NCBI GenBank assembly: GCA_020437545.1 | Contig: JAGQWH010000001.1 | Coordinates: 1 to 64,000, forward strand | DNA length: 64,000 bases | Direction of reading: 5' to 3' | DNA from: Ignavibacteriota bacterium | GTDB lineage: Bacteria > Bacteroidota > Ignavibacteria > Tepidaquicellales > Tepidaquicellaceae | Part shown: positions 2,724-61,813 of the stretch, piece by piece | Layout: every line of letters starts with the position of its first letter | How positions within the stretch are numbered: position 1 is the first letter of the stretch | The notes under the pieces: generated by a model | The model's input: only the letters and a program-made list of their open reading frames with translations | Told to the model about the DNA's origin: nothing | Database searches by the model: none | Translations under genes and position numbers: made by a program

Positions 2724-4136
2724 ATGAAACACATTTTTAAAATATTATTTCTGACTTTTATTGTCTCTAATATTTCAGCTGCTCAGCAGGTGATGTGGCA
2801 GAGATATTATGATGTTAATAATAAACCGGACTCCGGTCAGGATGTGTTACATACCTTTGACGGAGGATACGCGTTTTGCGGGTACGGAGGAGGTAGTTTA
2901 CTTTTGATGAAAGTAAATTCTATGGGAATACCAGAGTGGCAAAGAGTAATACCAGATAGTAACTCAAGATACAGAGCTTATTCTATGCAACAAACAAACG
3001 ATAGCGGTTTTATAATTACAGGAGATGTCAGAAATGATTCAATGTTATTACTGAAAACTGACAAAAACGGAATTCAGGAATGGCATAAAACTTTTACGAA
3101 TCCAAACGGACTTTCCAGAGGATATTCGATAAAAATTACTAATGATAACGGCTATATTATTTGCGGAGATATATTTTATTTTTCACCGCCGGGTATCAAA
3201 GCTTATGTTGTAAAAACAGATTCAGTAGGAAATTTACAATGGTCAATGGAATATGACAGTCTATTTAGTTCAGACATTATTCAAACATCTGATAACAATT
3301 ATTACTTTATTGGAGGTTCGAGCTTGAAAAAAATAAATTCGGATGGTTACCTCTTATGGACAAGATTTATTGGAAATGGATTATATAAATTCATTATATA
3401 TTCGGATAGTATTTTTTTTATATGTGGTACTCAAACAATTTCTTACTCTTACATGAAATTATCAAAAGTTGATACTACTGGTAATATATATTGGCAAAAA
3501 ACTTATAATGAAAATTCAAATTGTGTTAATTTATGTATGACTAATAATGGAGATATTGCGATGATAGGTACAGCATTTTGTGACAGTATTAATCCAGTTG
3601 TAAACGTAGCAATTTTAAAAGTTGATCAAACAGGCAAATTGCTTTTTTCAAGCAGGATTAATTCCACTACTAACATTAATGGTGAGGCATTTGCAATCAA
3701 AAGTACTTTTGATAATGGTTTTATAATTTCAGGCGCAACTGATTACGGAGGGACAAGCTTTAATATAAATGCCTTAGTAATTAAAACCGATTCATTAGGA
3801 AATACTTCCAAAATTGTAAATATTGAAAACAATGGAGTTTCATTTTCAAATGATTTTGTTTTATATCAAAATTATCCAAATCCATTTAATCCAACCAGTA
3901 TTTTGGAATTTGAGATTTCGGAAAATGGTCCGCCGCGGCGGATTGTTTCATTAAAAGTATATAATGCTTTGGGAATGGAAGTCGCTGATTTGGTTAATGA
4001 GAAGAAGTCTGCCGGAAGATACTCTGTTTCATTCGATGGCAGTAATTTACCGAGCGGAGTTTATTTTTATAAGCTGTCCGTCACAGGCGGTGGGAGAGAT
4101 TTTACTGAGACGAAACGGATGGTTTTGCTGAAATAA
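2724..4136 (+). CDS. Secreted protein with tandem beta-propeller-like repeats and a T9SS sorting domain
   Basis: A 470-residue protein with an N-terminal signal peptide (MKHIFKILFLTFIVSNISA) and a repeated pattern, about every 45-50 residues, of (N/D)GG(Y/F)(A/I)(F/I)xG followed by LLLMKVNSMGIPEWQR-type strands, as in delta-60 or propeller-like proteins. The last about 90 residues are a type A T9SS C-terminal domain: YQNYPNPFNP, VYNALGMEV, and a terminal SGVYFYKL...KRMVLLK. It is therefore expected on the cell surface or outside. Inside the sorting domain PPRRI is encoded by a perfect 12-base palindrome (3930-3941) that looks inserted. Ligand unknown. Confidence 0.88.
   Translation: MKHIFKILFLTFIVSNISAAQQVMWQRYYDVNNKPDSGQDVLHTFDGGYAFCGYGGGSLLLMKVNSMGIPEWQRVIPDSNSRYRAYSMQQTNDSGFIITGDVRNDSMLLLKTDKNGIQEWHKTFTNPNGLSRGYSIKITNDNGYIICGDIFYFSPPGIKAYVVKTDSVGNLQWSMEYDSLFSSDIIQTSDNNYYFIGGSSLKKINSDGYLLWTRFIGNGLYKFIIYSDSIFFICGTQTISYSYMKLSKVDTTGNIYWQKTYNENSNCVNLCMTNNGDIAMIGTAFCDSINPVVNVAILKVDQTGKLLFSSRINSTTNINGEAFAIKSTFDNGFIISGATDYGGTSFNINALVIKTDSLGNTSKIVNIENNGVSFSNDFVLYQNYPNPFNPTSILEFEISENGPPRRIVSLKVYNALGMEVADLVNEKKSAGRYSVSFDGSNLPSGVYFYKLSVTGGGRDFTETKRMVLLK
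3930..3941. repeat. GC-rich palindrome inside a coding region
   Basis: CCGCCGCGGCGG is a perfect 12-base palindrome in an otherwise AT-rich gene, encoding Pro-Pro-Arg-Arg within the T9SS domain. The following bases, giving CCGCGGCGGATTGT, recur exactly at 4196-4209 in the inverted-repeat element just downstream of the gene; a variant (CCGCGGATTG) is at about 42613. Confidence 0.7.
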
Positions 4137-4456: not shown

Positions 4457-4891
4457 ATGAAAACTTTAAAAATAAATTCAGCTATTCTGTTACTATCCTT
4501 TATATTAATCACCGGCTGCGGGAAGAGCGATGACAAAACTGCCGGGAATGATGCGGGTAAGAAGGAAGTTACCGAACAGACTCAAAAATCAACTGAAGAG
4601 AATACTGCTGTAATTGAAGGCGAAGTGGTCGAGATCAAACTCCCGACAATGCAGTGCAGTATGTGCAAGAAAACCATTGAAAAAGAAGTTAAGAAACTCG
4701 AAGGTGTGAACGATGTCAATGTAGTTGTAAAAGAGAAAGTTGCAAAAGTAACCTACGACAAGTCAAAAACTGATGTTGGTTCGATAGAAGGTGTGATAAT
4801 TTCAGCAGGTTATCAGGCAAATGACAAACCGGCGAATAAAGAGGCTTATGAGAAGCTGGATGACTGTTGTAAAATAGGAGCGCACGATTAA
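4457..4891 (+). CDS. Heavy-metal-associated (HMA) domain lipoprotein
   Basis: A 144-residue protein starting at ATG 4457. Its signal peptide ends in the lipobox ITGC, followed by a charged linker (about residues 22-60) and an HMA-type ferredoxin-like domain with the CSMC metal site (LPTMQCSMCKKTIEKEV) and the usual GVNDVNV and KVTYD strands. By family it would bind Cu or a similar soft metal in the periplasm; it lies about 320 bases before the copper-dependent respiratory operon, so a role in copper handling is a reasonable inference. CC near the C-terminus (DDCCKIG) is an extra possible metal site. Confidence 0.85.
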   Translation: MKTLKINSAILLLSFILITGCGKSDDKTAGNDAGKKEVTEQTQKSTEENTAVIEGEVVEIKLPTMQCSMCKKTIEKEVKKLEGVNDVNVVVKEKVAKVTYDKSKTDVGSIEGVIISAGYQANDKPANKEAYEKLDDCCKIGAHD

Positions 4892-4896
4892 GAGCA

Positions 4897-4975
4897 GTTA
4901 AAAGTTAAAAGTTAAAAGTTAAAAGTTGAAAGTTAAAAGTTGAAAGTTAAAAGTTAAAAGTTAAAAGTTAAAAGT
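4897..4975 (+). repeat. Heptamer array, AGTTAAA/AGTTGAA units
   Basis: About 11 copies of a seven-base unit (AGTTAAA with AGTTGAA variants) start six bases after the stop of the HMA lipoprotein. The unit is nearly identical to the one at 12267-12344, so the same word seeded two sites. No spacers and no palindromic structure, so this is not CRISPR. Confidence 0.9.
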
Positions 4976-4997: not shown

Positions 4998-5027
4998 TTT
5001 AATACTTAATACCTAATACTTAGTACC
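4998..5027. repeat. Short heptamer array, AATACTT/AATACCT units
   Basis: About four copies of AATACYT in tandem, the same word as the array behind dnaN at 60554-60582, lying immediately before a terminator hairpin. Confidence 0.75.
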
Positions 5028-5034
5028 ATTTTCT

Positions 5035-5069
5035 AAGACTGTATAATTTAATTTGTACAGTCTTTTTTT
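5035..5069 (+). terminator. Rho-independent terminator before the respiratory operon
   Basis: AAGACTGTA (5035-5043) pairs with TACAGTCTT (5056-5064) across a 12-base AT loop and is followed by a run of T. It would end transcription from the HMA lipoprotein and insulate the ActA promoter. Confidence 0.8.
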
Positions 5070-9409: not shown

Positions 9410-10821
9410 GTCTTGACGCTACTTACACGAGAGAGCTTCCTCTCGTAGAAAACAATGCTACACTGAAGGATCTTGATAATATTATTGCGCTTCCCACCGA
9501 AACCAAGCCTACCAAAGGCTGGTGGATCGCTATCAGTATCTCTTCCACAGCATTACTGATCGGAGCAATCTCACTCTTCTATACGATCTATTACGGTATA
9601 GGAATGTGGGGAAACAATCAGCCGGTCGGATGGGCATTCGGAATTATCAACTTCGTTTTCTGGATCGGTATCGGTCACGCCGGAACGCTTATCTCTGCTA
9701 TCCTTTTCCTTTTCAGACAGAAATGGAGAACGGGTATTGCGAGATTTGCTGAAGCCATGACGATCTTCGCCGTTATGACTGCGGGTATTTTTCCGATCAT
9801 ACATACAGGAAGACCATGGCTCGGAGGTTATCTTCTTCCTCTGCCGAATCAAAACGGTGTCTGGGTAAATTTCATGTCGCCTTTGCTCTGGGACGTGTTT
9901 GCGGTTTCAACTTATTTTACTATCTCATTCTTATTCTGGGGCATTGGACTTATTCCTGACCTTGCGATACTAAGAGATAAGACAACAAGCAAAATCAAGA
10001 AAAACATATATAAAGTATTAAGTCTCGGTTGGACAAACTCTAACAGAAACTGGAGCAACTACGAGAGAGCTTACCTTATCTTAGCCGGTATCTCTACACC
10101 GCTTGTGCTTTCGGTTCATACGATCGTTAGTTTTGACTTTGCCGTTTCGGTAATACCCGGATGGCATACGACTATCTTCCCGCCATACTTTGTTGCGGGA
10201 GCTATATTCTCGGGATTCGGTATGGTATCGACAGTGCTTATCATTGTGAGAAAAGTATTTAACATGGAGCATATTATTACCATCGGTCATCTTGAAAAAA
10301 TGAACAAGATATTGCTTGCAACAGGTACAATGGTTGGTTTTGCATATTCGATGGAATTTTTCGTTGCATGGTACAGCGGTAATACATTTGAGAGTTTCAC
10401 TTTTGTGAACAGGGCGTTTGGTCCTTATGCATGGGCATACTGGATCATGTTCAGCTGTAACGTATTTTTCCCGCAGCTTTTCTGGTTCAGAAAAATAAGA
10501 AGATCTATTCCTATAACTTTTATACTGGTAATTTTAGTGAACGTAGGTATGTGGTTCGAAAGATTTGTAATTATCGTAACATCTCTTCACAGGGATTTTT
10601 TACCATCGAGCTGGGCAATGTTTACTCCAACGCTGACTGACATGGGATTACTTTTAGGAAGTTTCGGATTCTTCTTTACTCTGCTGTTCCTGTTCCTGAA
10701 GACACTTCCGCTTGTATCAATATCGGAGGTTAAGGCAGTAGTCGAAGGCGCTCAGCCTACAGTACATCCACATCCTCACACTAACGGAAAAGCAATACAG
10801 GAAGGAGGAGACGGACATTGA
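9406..10821 (+). CDS. actC: ActC, NrfD/PsrC-type quinol-binding membrane subunit of ACIII
   Basis: A 471-residue polytopic protein with about ten transmembrane helices, of the NrfD/PsrC family ([54 protein letters not shown]). It is one of the two quinol-site subunits. The start is TTG at 9406, overlapping the actB stop as TTGA, with a strong ribosome-binding site (GAGGAGGG) just upstream. The C-terminus is His-rich ([10 protein letters not shown]). Confidence 0.93.
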
Positions 10822-12035
10822 TTAAGAAATTGATAGATAAACTGAATGAGATAAATAAATTTGACAGAAATGCAGATAACGGTGAAAGAAGCAAAAAGCT
10901 TTTTGGTCTGGCTGCTCTTTACGAGACTCCTAATGAGATCATTGAAGCCGCAGCAGTAGTTGCAGGAAAAGGATATGAGAAGTTTGATGTTTATACACCA
11001 TATCCGTTACACGGAATGGACGATGCAATGGGAATGGATAAACCAAAGGTCGGATATGTTTCATTTATATTCGGATTAACAGGAATGTGTCTTGCGTTGC
11101 TTATGATCGGATGGATGAGCGGAATTGATTATCCGAACATCATAGGCGGAAAACCGTTTTTCTCGCTGCCTCCTTCGATTCCAATAACATTTGAAGGTAC
11201 TATACTTTTGACAGGTATAGCAACTGTTCTCGGTATGCTTGTATTATTCAACAAACTCCCGAAGATAGACAGTCCATTGAATGACACAGATTTCATGAGA
11301 AATGTTTCTTCCGATAAATACGGAATTGTGATTCAGACTGATGATGATCTGTTTACAGAGCAGGATGTAAAGAATTTATATTTATCGACAGGGGCATATA
11401 ATGTACAGGAAATATTTTACAGGGAATCCAACTTAACAACGAAGACTCCTTTATTTGATAAGAAATTTATAAGTGCTATAATCGGTACAGCCGTAGTCAC
11501 TGCTGTGGTAACATATTTTATTGTAAACTTTGTACTTTACAGTACAGTACCATTTGACTGGATGTGGGTACAGCCGAGGATCGATTCACAGAGTCCGAGC
11601 ACATTTTTCCCGAATAATTCGGGAATGCGTGAGCCGGTCAACGGAACCGTTGCAAGAGGTTTTCTTCCTTATGAATACAAAGGTCTGCCTGATTCATCGG
11701 TAAAGCTGCTGGCAAATCCGCTGGCTGTAAGCAAAGAAGTGCTCGAAAGAGGTCAGGACAGATTCAATATATACTGCAGTCCGTGTCACGGATATTTCGG
11801 TGAAGGTGACGGAAGATTAAAAGGATTATTCCCGAAACCTCCTACACTTCATTCAAAGAAAGTCAAAGAATGGACTGACGGAAATATTTATCATGTAATA
11901 ACAAACGGACAGAATGTGATGCCGAGCTATGCAGAGCAGGTTTCAAGAGATGACAGGTGGGCAATTATACATTATATCAGAGCTTTAGAGAGATCAAAGG
12001 ATGCGAGTGAGCAGGATGTGGAATTGGCGAAGTAG
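10818..12035 (+). CDS. actDE: Fused ActD-ActE subunit of ACIII
   Basis: A 405-residue protein in one uninterrupted frame. Residues 1 to about 195 are ActD (DUF3341): [31 protein letters not shown], two transmembrane helices and a soluble end. A third helix (about residues 213-238) leads into an ActE-type monoheme cytochrome c (CSPCHG near 317; VMPSYAEQV with the distal Met; [13 protein letters not shown]). In other Bacteroidota ActD and ActE are normally separate, ActE being a lipoprotein; here a transmembrane linker replaces the lipid anchor. Start is TTG at 10818 with TTGA overlap and a GGAGGAG ribosome-binding site. Confidence 0.9.
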
Positions 12036-12104
12036 TAGTTAATAGTTAATAGTTAATAGTTAGTAGTTAATAGTTAGTAGTTAATAGTTAGTAGTTAATA
12101 GTTG
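12033..12104 (+). repeat. Heptamer array, AGTTAAT/AGTTAGT units
   Basis: About ten seven-base units (TAGTTAA phase) starting with the stop codon of actDE itself (TAGTAGTTAATAG). It separates actDE from the 53-residue gene inside the operon. Confidence 0.9.
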
Positions 12105-12118
12105 ATTAAAGAAAATTT

Positions 12119-12280
12119 ATGGAGAAAAAAATAAACCCATATAACGGTGTAGAGATCGACCCAATGTTTGACGGTCATCTTGAGAAACCATTATCAAAGA
12201 TGACACCAAAGGAAAAGCTTGATTATTTATGGCTTCAGACCATGTTTAAATGGACAGTTGATAATAAAGTTGAAAGTTGA
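12119..12280 (+). CDS. 53-residue protein inside the ACIII operon
   Basis: A short open frame starting at ATG 12119: MEKKINPYNGVEIDPMFDG, then HLEKPLSKMTPKEKLDYLWL and QTMFKWTVDNK, ending VES. The composition is protein-like (conserved-looking DP, KPLSKMTPKEKLDYLW), with no membrane segment or signal. It lies between actDE and actF on the coding strand and is bracketed by two heptamer arrays; its last three codons and TGA stop are formed by the second array. Function unknown; a small soluble ACIII accessory or assembly factor is an inference from position only. Confidence 0.65.
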   Translation: MEKKINPYNGVEIDPMFDGHLEKPLSKMTPKEKLDYLWLQTMFKWTVDNKVES

Positions 12281-12344
12281 AAGTTGAAAGTTGAAAGTTG
12301 AAAGTTAAAAGTTGAAAGTTGAAAGTTGAAAGTTAAAAGTTAAG
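12267..12344 (+). repeat. Heptamer array, AGTTGAA/AGTTAAA units
   Basis: About 11 seven-base units beginning inside the 3' end of the 53-residue gene and supplying its stop codon. It uses the same word as the array at 4897-4975. Confidence 0.9.
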
Positions 12345-42526: not shown

Positions 42527-42640
42527 GTCTATGAGTTGGAATGAGTTTGTATGAACTATGATTTGGAATGACCTGGAATGAAAACTATGATAGTATTTAA
42601 ACTATTCCGCCTCCGCGGATTGAAATGAATTAAATGAAAA
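42527..42640. repeat. Short-word repeats left of the GxxExxY gene
   Basis: A degenerate run of words of about ten bases such as GGAATGA, ACTATGATTTGGAATGA (42555-42571) and AAATGAAAACTATGA, with a CCGCCTCCGCGGATTG insert at about 42608. The words are complementary to those on the right side of the next gene. Confidence 0.7.
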
Positions 42641-55330: not shown

Positions 55331-55506
55331 TTGGTTGATTGGTGATTGGTTAATTGGTTAATTGGTTGATTGGAGATTGGTTAATTGGTTAATTGGTTAA
55401 CTGGTTAATTGGTTAATTGGTTAACTGGTTAATTGGTTAACTGGTTAATTGGTTAACTGGTTAATTGGTTAACTGGTTGATTGGAGATTGGTTAATTGGT
55501 TTAATT
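55331..55506. repeat. Octamer tandem array, GGTTAATT/GGTTAACT units
   Basis: About 20 units of eight bases (GGTTAATT, GGTTAACT, GGTTGATT), interrupted at places by seven-base units (GGTGATT, GGAGATT). There is second-order order: GGTTAATT and GGTTAACT alternate as a 16-base unit. Contiguous perfect units make this a tandem repeat and not CRISPR. Confidence 0.92.
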
Positions 55507-55513
55507 ATTCATC

Positions 55514-55681
55514 TTTAATCTCACGTCCGACATCTCACGTCTCACCTCTGACGTCTCACGTCTGACCTCTGACGTCTGACCTCTGACGTCTGATGTCTCA
55601 CGTCTGACATCTCCCGTCTCGCGTCTCACGTCTGGCGTCTCACCTCTGACGTCTCACGTCTTGCGTCTCACGTCTCACGTA
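55514..55681. repeat. Heptamer array, GTCTCAC/GTCTGAC units
   Basis: About 23 degenerate seven-base units (GTCTCAC, GTCTGAC, CTCTGAC, ATCTCAC, GTCTTGC, GTCTGGC), GC-richer than the surrounding DNA. It ends flush against the uppP stop codon at 55682-55684. Read in the sense of uppP the unit is AGACGTG/AGACGTC. Confidence 0.93.
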
Positions 55682-56512
55682 CTATTCCAGATTTGTAAGT
55701 ATTCCCTGTGACAAAAGAATGAGAATTATTATTCCAAGCGCTATTCTATATATAATAAATACCATATTGCTCTTTGTTTTGAGATATGAAATCAGAAATG
55801 CTATGGAAAGATATCCTACTATTCCCGATACAACAGTTGCAACTGTTAAGCTGAGCAGATTTTCGTTTAGAAGAAGATCTCTTTCTTTATACAGTTCATA
55901 AAGCCCGCTGAGACCAATTGCGGGTATGCTCAGGAGAAATGAAAATCTTGCTGCAACATCCCTTTTCAATCCTCTGAAAAGACCGGCTGTGATAGTGACG
56001 CCGCTTCTCGAACTTCCGGGTATAAGCGCAAGTGCCTGAGCAAAGCCTATTACCAATCCGTCTTTTACGGTAATTTCCGAAAGATCCTTTTTTCTTGAAC
56101 CGACTTTCTCTGCAATGAAAAGAATGATGGCAAGTAAGATCAATGCAGCGCTGATCACATAGAGCCCTCTGGCATCACCTTCTATGAATCTTTTGAAAAG
56201 TAATCCGCAGACACCTATAGGGATAGTTCCTACAATGATAAGTATGAAATTTCTTGATTCGGAATTGGTAAGAAAGTCCTTTTTCTTAAATGCTCCGAGG
56301 AATCCGTTTATAAGATTAATGATGTCTTTCTTGAAATAGATAAGCGTTGCGACGAGTGTTCCGATCTGCATCACTGCTGAGTAAGCAGCTCCGATATCTT
56401 TCCAGCCGAGTAAAGCCGGTATTATTCTGAGATGTGCTGTGCTGCTGACCGGAATGAATTCCGTGGTACCCTGTATTATTCCAAGAACAATTGCTCTGAA
56501 TATTTCTTCCAA
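55682..56512 (-). CDS. uppP: Undecaprenyl-diphosphatase (BacA/UppP)
   Basis: A 276-residue, eight-helix membrane enzyme that dephosphorylates undecaprenyl pyrophosphate to recycle the cell-wall lipid carrier. The catalytic motifs are GTTEFIPVSSTAHLRI and PGSSRSGVTITAGLFRGL. Full family length. Its 3' end is abutted by the heptamer array. Confidence 0.95.
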   Translation of the reverse strand: MEEIFRAIVLGIIQGTTEFIPVSSTAHLRIIPALLGWKDIGAAYSAVMQIGTLVATLIYFKKDIINLINGFLGAFKKKDFLTNSESRNFILIIVGTIPIGVCGLLFKRFIEGDARGLYVISAALILLAIILFIAEKVGSRKKDLSEITVKDGLVIGFAQALALIPGSSRSGVTITAGLFRGLKRDVAARFSFLLSIPAIGLSGLYELYKERDLLLNENLLSLTVATVVSGIVGYLSIAFLISYLKTKSNMVFIIYRIALGIIILILLSQGILTNLE

Positions 56513-60553: not shown

Positions 60554-60582
60554 TAATACCTAATACCTAATACTTAATACCT
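60554..60582. repeat. Short heptamer array behind dnaN
   Basis: TAATACCTAATACCTAATACTTAATACC: four seven-base units, five bases beyond the dnaN stop, with the same word as at 4998-5027. Confidence 0.8.
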
Positions 60583-60586
60583 GTAA

Positions 60587-61813
60587 TTATCCGACTCTCA
60601 CAGGCATAATAAGCTCAATATAATTCTCATTCTTCTTCTGCTCTGATGGAGTAATTATAGCTGCTTTGGATGAACTTCCGAAACTTATATTAATCTCACC
60701 CTCAGGCATGTGTTTCGAATCATCACCATCATCAATCAGAACTCCGTCTGCTCCGATCTTTGGTTCTTCATCACCGGAACTGTGTCCTGTATCCATCTGC
60801 GAGACTGCATCAAGTAAATATCCGGCATTGAATGCTATCACAAAAGGATTGCTGTCAAAATCTTCGTCACCTCCTGTGCTTGTAAATGAACCTTCGATTG
60901 TCTCTTCACCTTCCGAACCAATTTCCGGATTATCAGCCTTGATGGTCAGCGCATTGTTCGATATCTCAAGTCTTACTCTTTTTGTTATTGCATCTGCAAA
61001 TATAAGCGCTCTTCTCAGTGATGCTGATAATGAACTCTTTTCAATTTTCAGGATCTTGTCATTGTTGTCCGGGATCACATTTTCATAACTCGGGAATGTA
61101 TCATCTATCAATTTTGAAAATATTTCAAAATCCCCGAAGGTAACCTTAAGGTCATTTTCATCAAAATCGATCACAGAATCTTCACCGTTATTTAATCTTA
61201 AAATTAAGTTACTGGTCTTCAGCGGAATAATGATCTTTTCTTCAAGATCGGATTTCACTTTGAAATTATCCTTAATGATCTTTCCGAGTCTGAATCCGTC
61301 TGTAGCAACAAACTTAAGTTCGCCGGGCTTAACATCAAGTAAAACACCCGACATATTCCTTCTGAGTTCGTCAGTATTGACAGCATGAATGACTTTTGAC
61401 AGAAATCTTCTTAAGAGACGTCCGTCAAATTCCAGTTTATTCATCTCACCTTTTTCTTCCGGTACAGGAAATTCCTCAGCCGGCTCACCGCCTATTGTAT
61501 ATTTTCCGTTTTTGGTTTTTATGGTAATACGGTTCTTTTCATTAACACTAAAATCCAGCTTTGCAGAAGTCAGAGTTCTCGAGATCTCAAGTAATTTTTT
61601 AGCCGGAATTGCAACTTTCCCGTCTTTTTCACCTTTGACTTCAAGAGTCGTACGGATAAAGATCTCCAGATCCGAAGCTAAAAGCTTCAGTTCGTTTCCG
61701 TTTAATTCGAATAATATATTATCAAGAATCGGAAGGGGAGAGCGTGTTGGTATTACTGAATTGAGTTTACTAAGATAATCTACAAGTTTGTCACCTGTAA
61801 CAGAAAATTTCAT
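60587..61813 (-). CDS. dnaN: DNA polymerase III beta subunit (sliding clamp), with C-terminal acidic insertion
   Basis: A 408-residue beta clamp, longer than the usual about 370. The three-domain fold is intact (PTRSPLPILDNILFELNGNEL; RRNMSGVLLDV; the end YIELIMPVRVG). An insertion of about 30 residues rich in Asp, Glu and Gly (GHSSGDEEPKIGADGVLIDD and following) lies between the DAVSQMD segment and the ISFGSSSKAAIITP strand in domain III. It tethers the polymerase to DNA. A consensus promoter lies 30-60 bases upstream. Confidence 0.95.
   Translation of the reverse strand: MKFSVTGDKLVDYLSKLNSVIPTRSPLPILDNILFELNGNELKLLASDLEIFIRTTLEVKGEKDGKVAIPAKKLLEISRTLTSAKLDFSVNEKNRITIKTKNGKYTIGGEPAEEFPVPEEKGEMNKLEFDGRLLRRFLSKVIHAVNTDELRRNMSGVLLDVKPGELKFVATDGFRLGKIIKDNFKVKSDLEEKIIIPLKTSNLILRLNNGEDSVIDFDENDLKVTFGDFEIFSKLIDDTFPSYENVIPDNNDKILKIEKSSLSASLRRALIFADAITKRVRLEISNNALTIKADNPEIGSEGEETIEGSFTSTGGDEDFDSNPFVIAFNAGYLLDAVSQMDTGHSSGDEEPKIGADGVLIDDGDDSKHMPEGEINISFGSSSKAAIITPSEQKKNENYIELIMPVRVG

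Follow-up and report, generated by a model that had tools for sequence, protein, structure and literature searches.

Seven-base tandem arrays at gene edges of an Ignavibacteriota genome lead outward with a nearly C-free strand

The window, a 64-kb stretch of DNA on contig 111 (C111) of the draft genome of an Ignavibacteriota bacterium (G000; 4.29 Mb in 429 contigs), contains tandem arrays with a seven-base period, six of which lie against a stop codon or overlap it. The psuG-like gene (1471-2382, + strand; Pfam Indigoidine_A) terminates with the residues ISIE within an array of the GAGTATT type (TATTGAG; 2367-2402, +) that spans its stop codon at 2380-2382 and has its G strand directed outward. 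A second array, AATTAC(G)/AATTTCG (2408-2451), follows 24 bp past the same stop and has nearly equal G and C, so that no orientation can be assigned. The HMA-domain gene (4457-4891, +; Pfam HMA) has its stop at 4889-4891, and an array of 11.4 AGTTAAA/AGTTGAA copies (4896-4975, +) begins 4 bp past it. Together with a short, four-copy TAATACY array (4998-5027, -; AGTATTA type on the minus strand) it forms a facing arrangement, and just past both lies an intrinsic-terminator-like hairpin with a T-run (5035-5064, +). The arrays 2408-2451 and 4998-5027 are not at a gene end. Further downstream, the TAG stop (12033-12035) of an actD/cytochrome c gene (10818-12035, +; Pfam ActD and cytochrome c) opens a TAGTTAA/TAGTTAG array of period 7 (14) (12033-12103, +), and an AGTTGAA array (12266-12343, +) overlaps the 3' end of a 53-aa gene (12119-12280, +), encoding its final residues (KVES) and its stop. 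On the minus strand, a degenerate array of the AGACGTG type (55519-55681, -; about 23 copies, 76% matches) lies 1 bp downstream of the stop of uppP/bacA (55682-56512, -; Pfam BacA), and four copies of the RGTATTA type (60554-60582, -) lie 4 bp downstream of the dnaN stop (gene 60587-61813, -; Pfam DNA_pol3_beta). The uppP array faces an array of period 8, TTGGTTAA (55331-55506, +), which is absent from the initial annotation. All seven arrays listed there are present, one of them (2371-2451) being in fact the two arrays 2367-2402 and 2408-2451, and the gene names psuG-like, HMA, actD, uppP and dnaN agree with the Pfam assignments. Rfam gave no hits within the 64-kb window.

Heptanucleotide tandem repeats are also known from cyanobacteria as STRR, with units differing from those described here. 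In 672 kb of G000, a lag-based scan for periods 2-30 detected 112 arrays of period 7, compared with 14 of period 9, nine of period 8, eight of period 14 and eight or fewer of the remaining periods, and first-order Markov simulated sequence contained no period-7 array; the arrays are confirmed as real and far beyond chance. Almost all of them (109/112) are intergenic. Both the excess at length 7 (112 versus at most 14 at any other period) and the avoidance of coding DNA by units that are not a multiple of three are features of the long simple sequence repeats of Mrazek et al. (2007), for which the summary in PMC4679880 reports that heptamers are the most abundant among units of 5-11 bases, that coding DNA is avoided and that slippage was proposed; unlike the present case, a gene-edge or strand rule is absent from that summary. 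The total for G000 is in the hundreds of arrays, the sampled density being biased upward because part of the contigs were picked for their AGTTAAA arrays; positions relative to genes should be unbiased. Since gene calling used a simple Markov model with long ORFs as the training set, stop positions are exact and start positions are estimates. Draft contigs often begin or end within heptamer arrays, in the sister species G001 and G002 as well as in several public drafts, and assemblies thus undercount them. An assembly or sequencing artefact, for which the many draft contigs terminating inside arrays might speak, is extremely improbable: the same structures occur in separately assembled genomes, in isolates and in one nearly complete genome, and ORFs end cleanly there.

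The arrays are concentrated at gene edges. With periods 7-9 taken together, 75 of 125 lie at most 15 bp from an ORF edge, whereas random placement of each array within its own spacer predicts 33 and never exceeded 46 in 2000 trials. Per edge, a hugging period-7 array is carried by 13-16% (about 14%) of stop edges, by 5.5-6% (15/256) of tandem start edges and by none of the 116 divergent start edges (Fisher p = 0.001 and 0.004 for these differences), and stop edges are preferred about 2.7-fold over tandem start edges. Among the stop-hugging period-7 arrays, 19 of 47 have their beginning inside the ORF, whose final codons they provide or overlap. The hugging of stop codons noted in the initial annotation is therefore real (54 arrays at most 15 bp from stops), but it makes up the more frequent half of a rule about gene edges in general, starts (16 arrays) and tRNA edges being hugged too. 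In G000 and the sister species, 16 arrays sit 2-10 bp from the edge of a tRNA gene, on 3' and on 5' sides, and none at 11-20 bp (78 distinct tRNA genes). Hence translation is not required for hugging. Of the arrays scored as distant, one, at 329 bp from the nearest ORF, proved to lie 7 bp past tRNA-Tyr, and a second follows a terminator hairpin. A period that is not a multiple of three, the reason initially offered for the arrays stopping at genes, accounts for their exclusion from ORFs but not for the empty divergent starts, which indicate that promoters are avoided too. An even spread over gene starts, gene ends and other spacers without strand bias was looked for in the 672 kb and is clearly not the case.

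The preference for stops is also what would be expected if the arrays arose or acted in the 3' untranslated RNA or marked transcript ends, as was first suggested for the window. This reading is largely refuted and very unlikely, since the 16 start-edge arrays have the reversed strand sense, tRNA genes are hugged at both ends, and intrinsic terminators follow stop-hugging arrays (3/54) about as often as array-free stop edges (9/196). An excess of period 7 in the 3' flank consists mostly of other arrays and is small once these are masked.

The arrays are strongly asymmetric in composition and in orientation. One strand has less than 3% C in 88 of 103 period-7 arrays, and the C-poor strands overall contain 2.1% C and 23.3% G. 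When each array is oriented by this nearly C-free strand and contact is defined as a distance of at most 15 bp from an ORF, the 5' end makes the contact in 70 of 116 arrays and the 3' end in four (p ~1e-16), with median distances to the ORF edge of 7 bp and 120 bp, respectively. The ratio of 5' to 3' contacts is 54:2 at stops and 16:2 at starts, and spacers with exactly two oriented arrays hold 20 facing pairs, no back-to-back pair and five pairs of the same orientation. Convergent spacers are as polar as the remaining ones. Far from any ORF the polarity is reduced (31/45), and it is weaker at tRNA genes than at ORFs; at the tRNA genes the numbers are small, with eight arrays pointing outward, four inward and four unassignable. 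The initial annotation had tied orientation to transcription; a strong orientation does exist, but its strand sense is reversed at starts, so the gene edge decides. The orientation tracks neither transcription, given that starts and stops show the same behaviour, nor replication, given that one spacer can hold both orientations; both directions were rejected as the source of polarity. Background base composition was rejected as well: array-free regions downstream of stops have a G/C skew of 0.09 and then 0, and array-free upstream spacers are mildly G-depleted (skew about -0.1). A designed hairpin between facing arrays was likewise discarded, as the two members had the same unit in 0 of 18 facing period-7 pairs (9% expected), 18 pairs being too few to prove avoidance of the same unit. 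Arrays of period 8 and 9 (TTGGTTAA and GAGTGTATA types), located on contigs 222, 77, 110, 22, 221, 321 and others besides 55331-55506 in the window, follow the outward rule too, in fewer cases (period 9 contacts within 15 bp, 6 versus 0).

Selection at the RNA level could set the polarity, in which case a transcribed array would have to be G-free upstream of a gene and C-free downstream of it. Upstream, this might prevent spurious start codons or Shine-Dalgarno-like sites, and downstream, for example, C-rich, G-poor sequences that load Rho. The G-depletion of array-free upstream spacers, the exclusion of arrays from divergent promoters, the weaker polarity far from genes and the mixed orientation at tRNA 5' edges (two outward, two inward) agree with such selection. 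However, array-free 3' regions are almost skewless, polarity is just as strong in convergent spacers, which have no start codon close by, and two separate reasons are required for one geometric rule. We consider this explanation rather unlikely, though not negligible. Inside the arrays, the 5' junction is phase-locked (|AGTTAAA, |GTATTGA), and unit divergence compared along arrays is U-shaped, with no age gradient from 5' to 3'; directional growth is consequently not visible there.

Comparison with the sister species, of which G002 is a genus-mate, revealed turnover at fixed sites (coding identity of G000 to the sisters, 73-92%; loci given as contig:position). Of the G000 arrays examined, about half are matched by an array at the corresponding edge in a sister. 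The unit family is the same at C222:31292, C66:11969 and C222:28649. At the actD stop it differs by genome (TAGTTAA, TTAGTAG or AAGTATT), at the end of the 53-aa gene AGTTGAA stands against GAATTAG, and units have also been replaced at tRNA-Val and tRNA-Arg(tcg). Other orthologous edges are empty, as at C110:7090, where 107 bp with two arrays correspond to 17 bp without. At two loci a sister retains the lone seed. At the 53-aa gene, the coding end in G001 contains one AGTTGAA, followed by an alignable 3' flank, and at C210:6271 a single TGATTTGG in G002 corresponds to a GGGATTT array in G000. In both sisters, moreover, a gene of about 180 codons (at about 1820-2360 of the locus in one of them), which by eye may be nucleotidyltransferase-like, lies between the actD and 53-aa genes. 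It has been lost in G000 (12033-12118), where the array is now in place and the DNA 3' of the actD array is missing. On the 3' side of tRNA-Pro(cgg), all three sister species have a decayed 7-periodic stretch (TTCAATT TTAAATG ...), apparently the relic of an old array.

Comparable repeats have been described in other bacteria. Rehm et al. (2015; PMC4692102) studied the G-rich heptamers GGGAATC of Xanthomonas and GGGGA(C/T)T of Nostoc PCC 7120, which lie near an ORF on the 5' side of the repeat whatever its orientation, at most 50 bp from the stop (coding strand) or the start (non-coding strand), with the G strand leading away from the ORF. These repeats are scarce between divergent ORFs, often overlap stop codons and vary in length among close relatives; quadruplexes were discussed and a regulatory role was not found. 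The G000 arrays share the period, the intergenic location, the avoidance of divergent spacers (0/116) and the outward G strand (70 versus 4 contacts, and 20 versus 1 in a second genome). They differ in that most heptamers contain only one or two G (AGTTAAA, GAGTATT, GATTTTT), in the coexistence of several unit families, in the switching of units between sisters and in the hugging of tRNA edges. Runs of at least three G are missing from the main units AGTTAAA, GAGTATT, AGTTGAA and GATTTTT, and only a few GGGATTT or GGGTATT arrays occur in the G000 sample. Since most units thus lack quadruplex capacity, the G4 rationale put forward in print cannot account for the rule. In marine Beggiatoaceae, some Cyanobacteria and Bacteroidetes, MacGregor (2015; PMC4679880) found TAACTGA direct repeats, mostly of two to six copies and directly upstream of start codons. 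These are intergenic heptamers too, and in Beggiatoaceae their AGTT strand (TCAGTTA) leads away from the start codon; unlike them, the arrays studied here comprise many units, reach 24 copies and lie chiefly downstream of stops (54 stop versus 16 start edges), and TAACTGA is not among the unit families found in the G000 sample.

For the TAACTGA repeats of Beggiatoaceae, regulation of translation or binding was proposed (PMC4679880), and the present arrays might analogously be functional sites for protein or RNA binding, with a role in marking or insulating gene edges or in translational control. Conserved positions with varying copy number at several orthologous edges would suit this proposal, as would the core phase-locked at the 5' end and the transcription of most such repeats in Xanthomonas (PMC4692102). 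Yet sister species differ in the unit at the same edge, many orthologous edges are array-free, only about 14% of stop edges carry an array and the functions of the genes are diverse, so that a binding function appears improbable.

The polarity is not confined to Ignavibacteria. Among the matches listed for the exact 28-base (GAGTATT)4 were Bacteroidota, Ignavibacteria, Cyanobacteria, Gammaproteobacteria, Desulfobacterota, Planctomycetes, Omnitrophota, Acidobacteria, Chloroflexota and others, with Taibaiella and Aequorivita among the cultured representatives. Gene calls at these listed loci were crude; on their basis, the 5' end was nearer to an ORF in 40 of 49 cases (contacts within 15 bp, 24 for the 5' end and 6 for the 3' end). 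An unrelated Bacteroidales genome, selected for having arrays and not for their orientation, contains 40 period-7 arrays in 235 kb versus two of other periods between 4 and 12. The rule is replicated in this other class: hugging contacts involve the 5' end in 20 cases and the 3' end in one, the 5' end is closer in 27 of 34 arrays (p = 0.0008), simple pairs are facing in five cases and back-to-back in none, and the C content is 2.2%. Small samples from Taibaiella and Calothrix show the same direction of polarity. Viral contigs are nearly without arrays, the unit-permutation controls there yielding only four to nine stretches each and one control being itself an array family.

Templated repeat addition would account for C-freeness and polarity at once: starting at the gene edge, a reverse transcriptase, telomerase-like or of another kind, would elongate a 3' end in the outward direction. 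Telomeric repeats have the same geometry and strand composition, with the C-free strand running 5' to 3' away from genes, and the phase-locked 5' junction and the DNA lost 3' of the actD array in G000 are compatible with such a step. The RVT_1 reverse transcriptase, however, was found in none of the array-rich genomes G000, G001 and G002, though 12 of the 40 relatives searched have it; the units are too many for one template, and seeds in situ exist at two loci. This mechanism is thus very improbable indeed.

Among the simple repeats of bacteria with longer units, heptamer arrays are the most common, and there is no agreed account of their origin. The explanation we favour, with about even confidence, is that they are locally seeded seven-base expansions in dispensable gene-side DNA and not transcript-end signals. 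The window arrays would accordingly be members of a genome-wide class that arises in place by duplication in seven-base steps, the seed being any short sequence in dispensable DNA that touches a gene. Turnover would be rapid, and arrays would be kept where they are tolerated (directly after stops, in the gaps that precede tandem starts and next to tRNA genes) and excluded from ORFs and promoter-bearing divergent spacers. Units would be retained chiefly when one of their strands is almost devoid of C, which leaves no G-C hairpin on either strand. We infer slippage as the generating step and purifying selection as the filter. The dominance of period 7, the avoidance of ORFs and the per-edge rates support local expansion, as do the 70 versus 4 contacts, the facing pairs, the C-poor strand amid near-skewless array-free spacers, the hugged tRNA edges, the two seeds, the turnover of units at fixed edges and the Bacteroidales replicate. 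Plain slippage, however, predicts neither polarity nor hugging by one end, nor the phase-locked 5' junction, and seeds need not be C-free; the weaker polarity far from ORFs and at tRNA edges is a further difficulty. In addition, the recurrence of few unit families at unrelated loci and in at least 10 phyla suggests a sequence preference beyond local seeding. As to the polarity itself, we lean towards directional turnover, with one end anchored at or advancing to a functional boundary and the other decaying, the main alternative being selection on the transcribed strand.

It is conceivable, although short of probable, that one geometric law holds across unrelated phyla, by which the 5' end of the C-free strand adjoins the boundary of a functional element (a stop, start, tRNA or terminator) and the strand runs outward, independently of transcription and quadruplexes. 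Such a law might reflect an undescribed polarised process of array building or eroding common to many bacteria. The outward rule, previously reported for the G-rich repeats of Xanthomonas and Nostoc, is in any case more general than thought. That AT-rich units obey it too, at starts and stops as well as at tRNA edges, and that units are replaced between sister species, removes quadruplexes and transcription as its cause, and the 70 versus 4 contacts and 20 versus 0 facing pairs are a countable signature that any model of array birth must reproduce.

Two short sequences occur beside some of the arrays. The 14-bp palindrome TCCGCCGYGGCGGA occurs in 25 copies in the 672 kb (3929-3942 and 42606-42619 in the window); nine non-coding copies lie at most 30 bp from the 3' end of a heptamer array and none at a 5' end, and 17 of the 21 spacers containing the palindrome also contain an array. 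A leader, AGAGC, precedes the first unit of three AGTTRAA arrays at unrelated genes (C111:4896, C222:50414 and C110:21469) and could hint at copying between loci.
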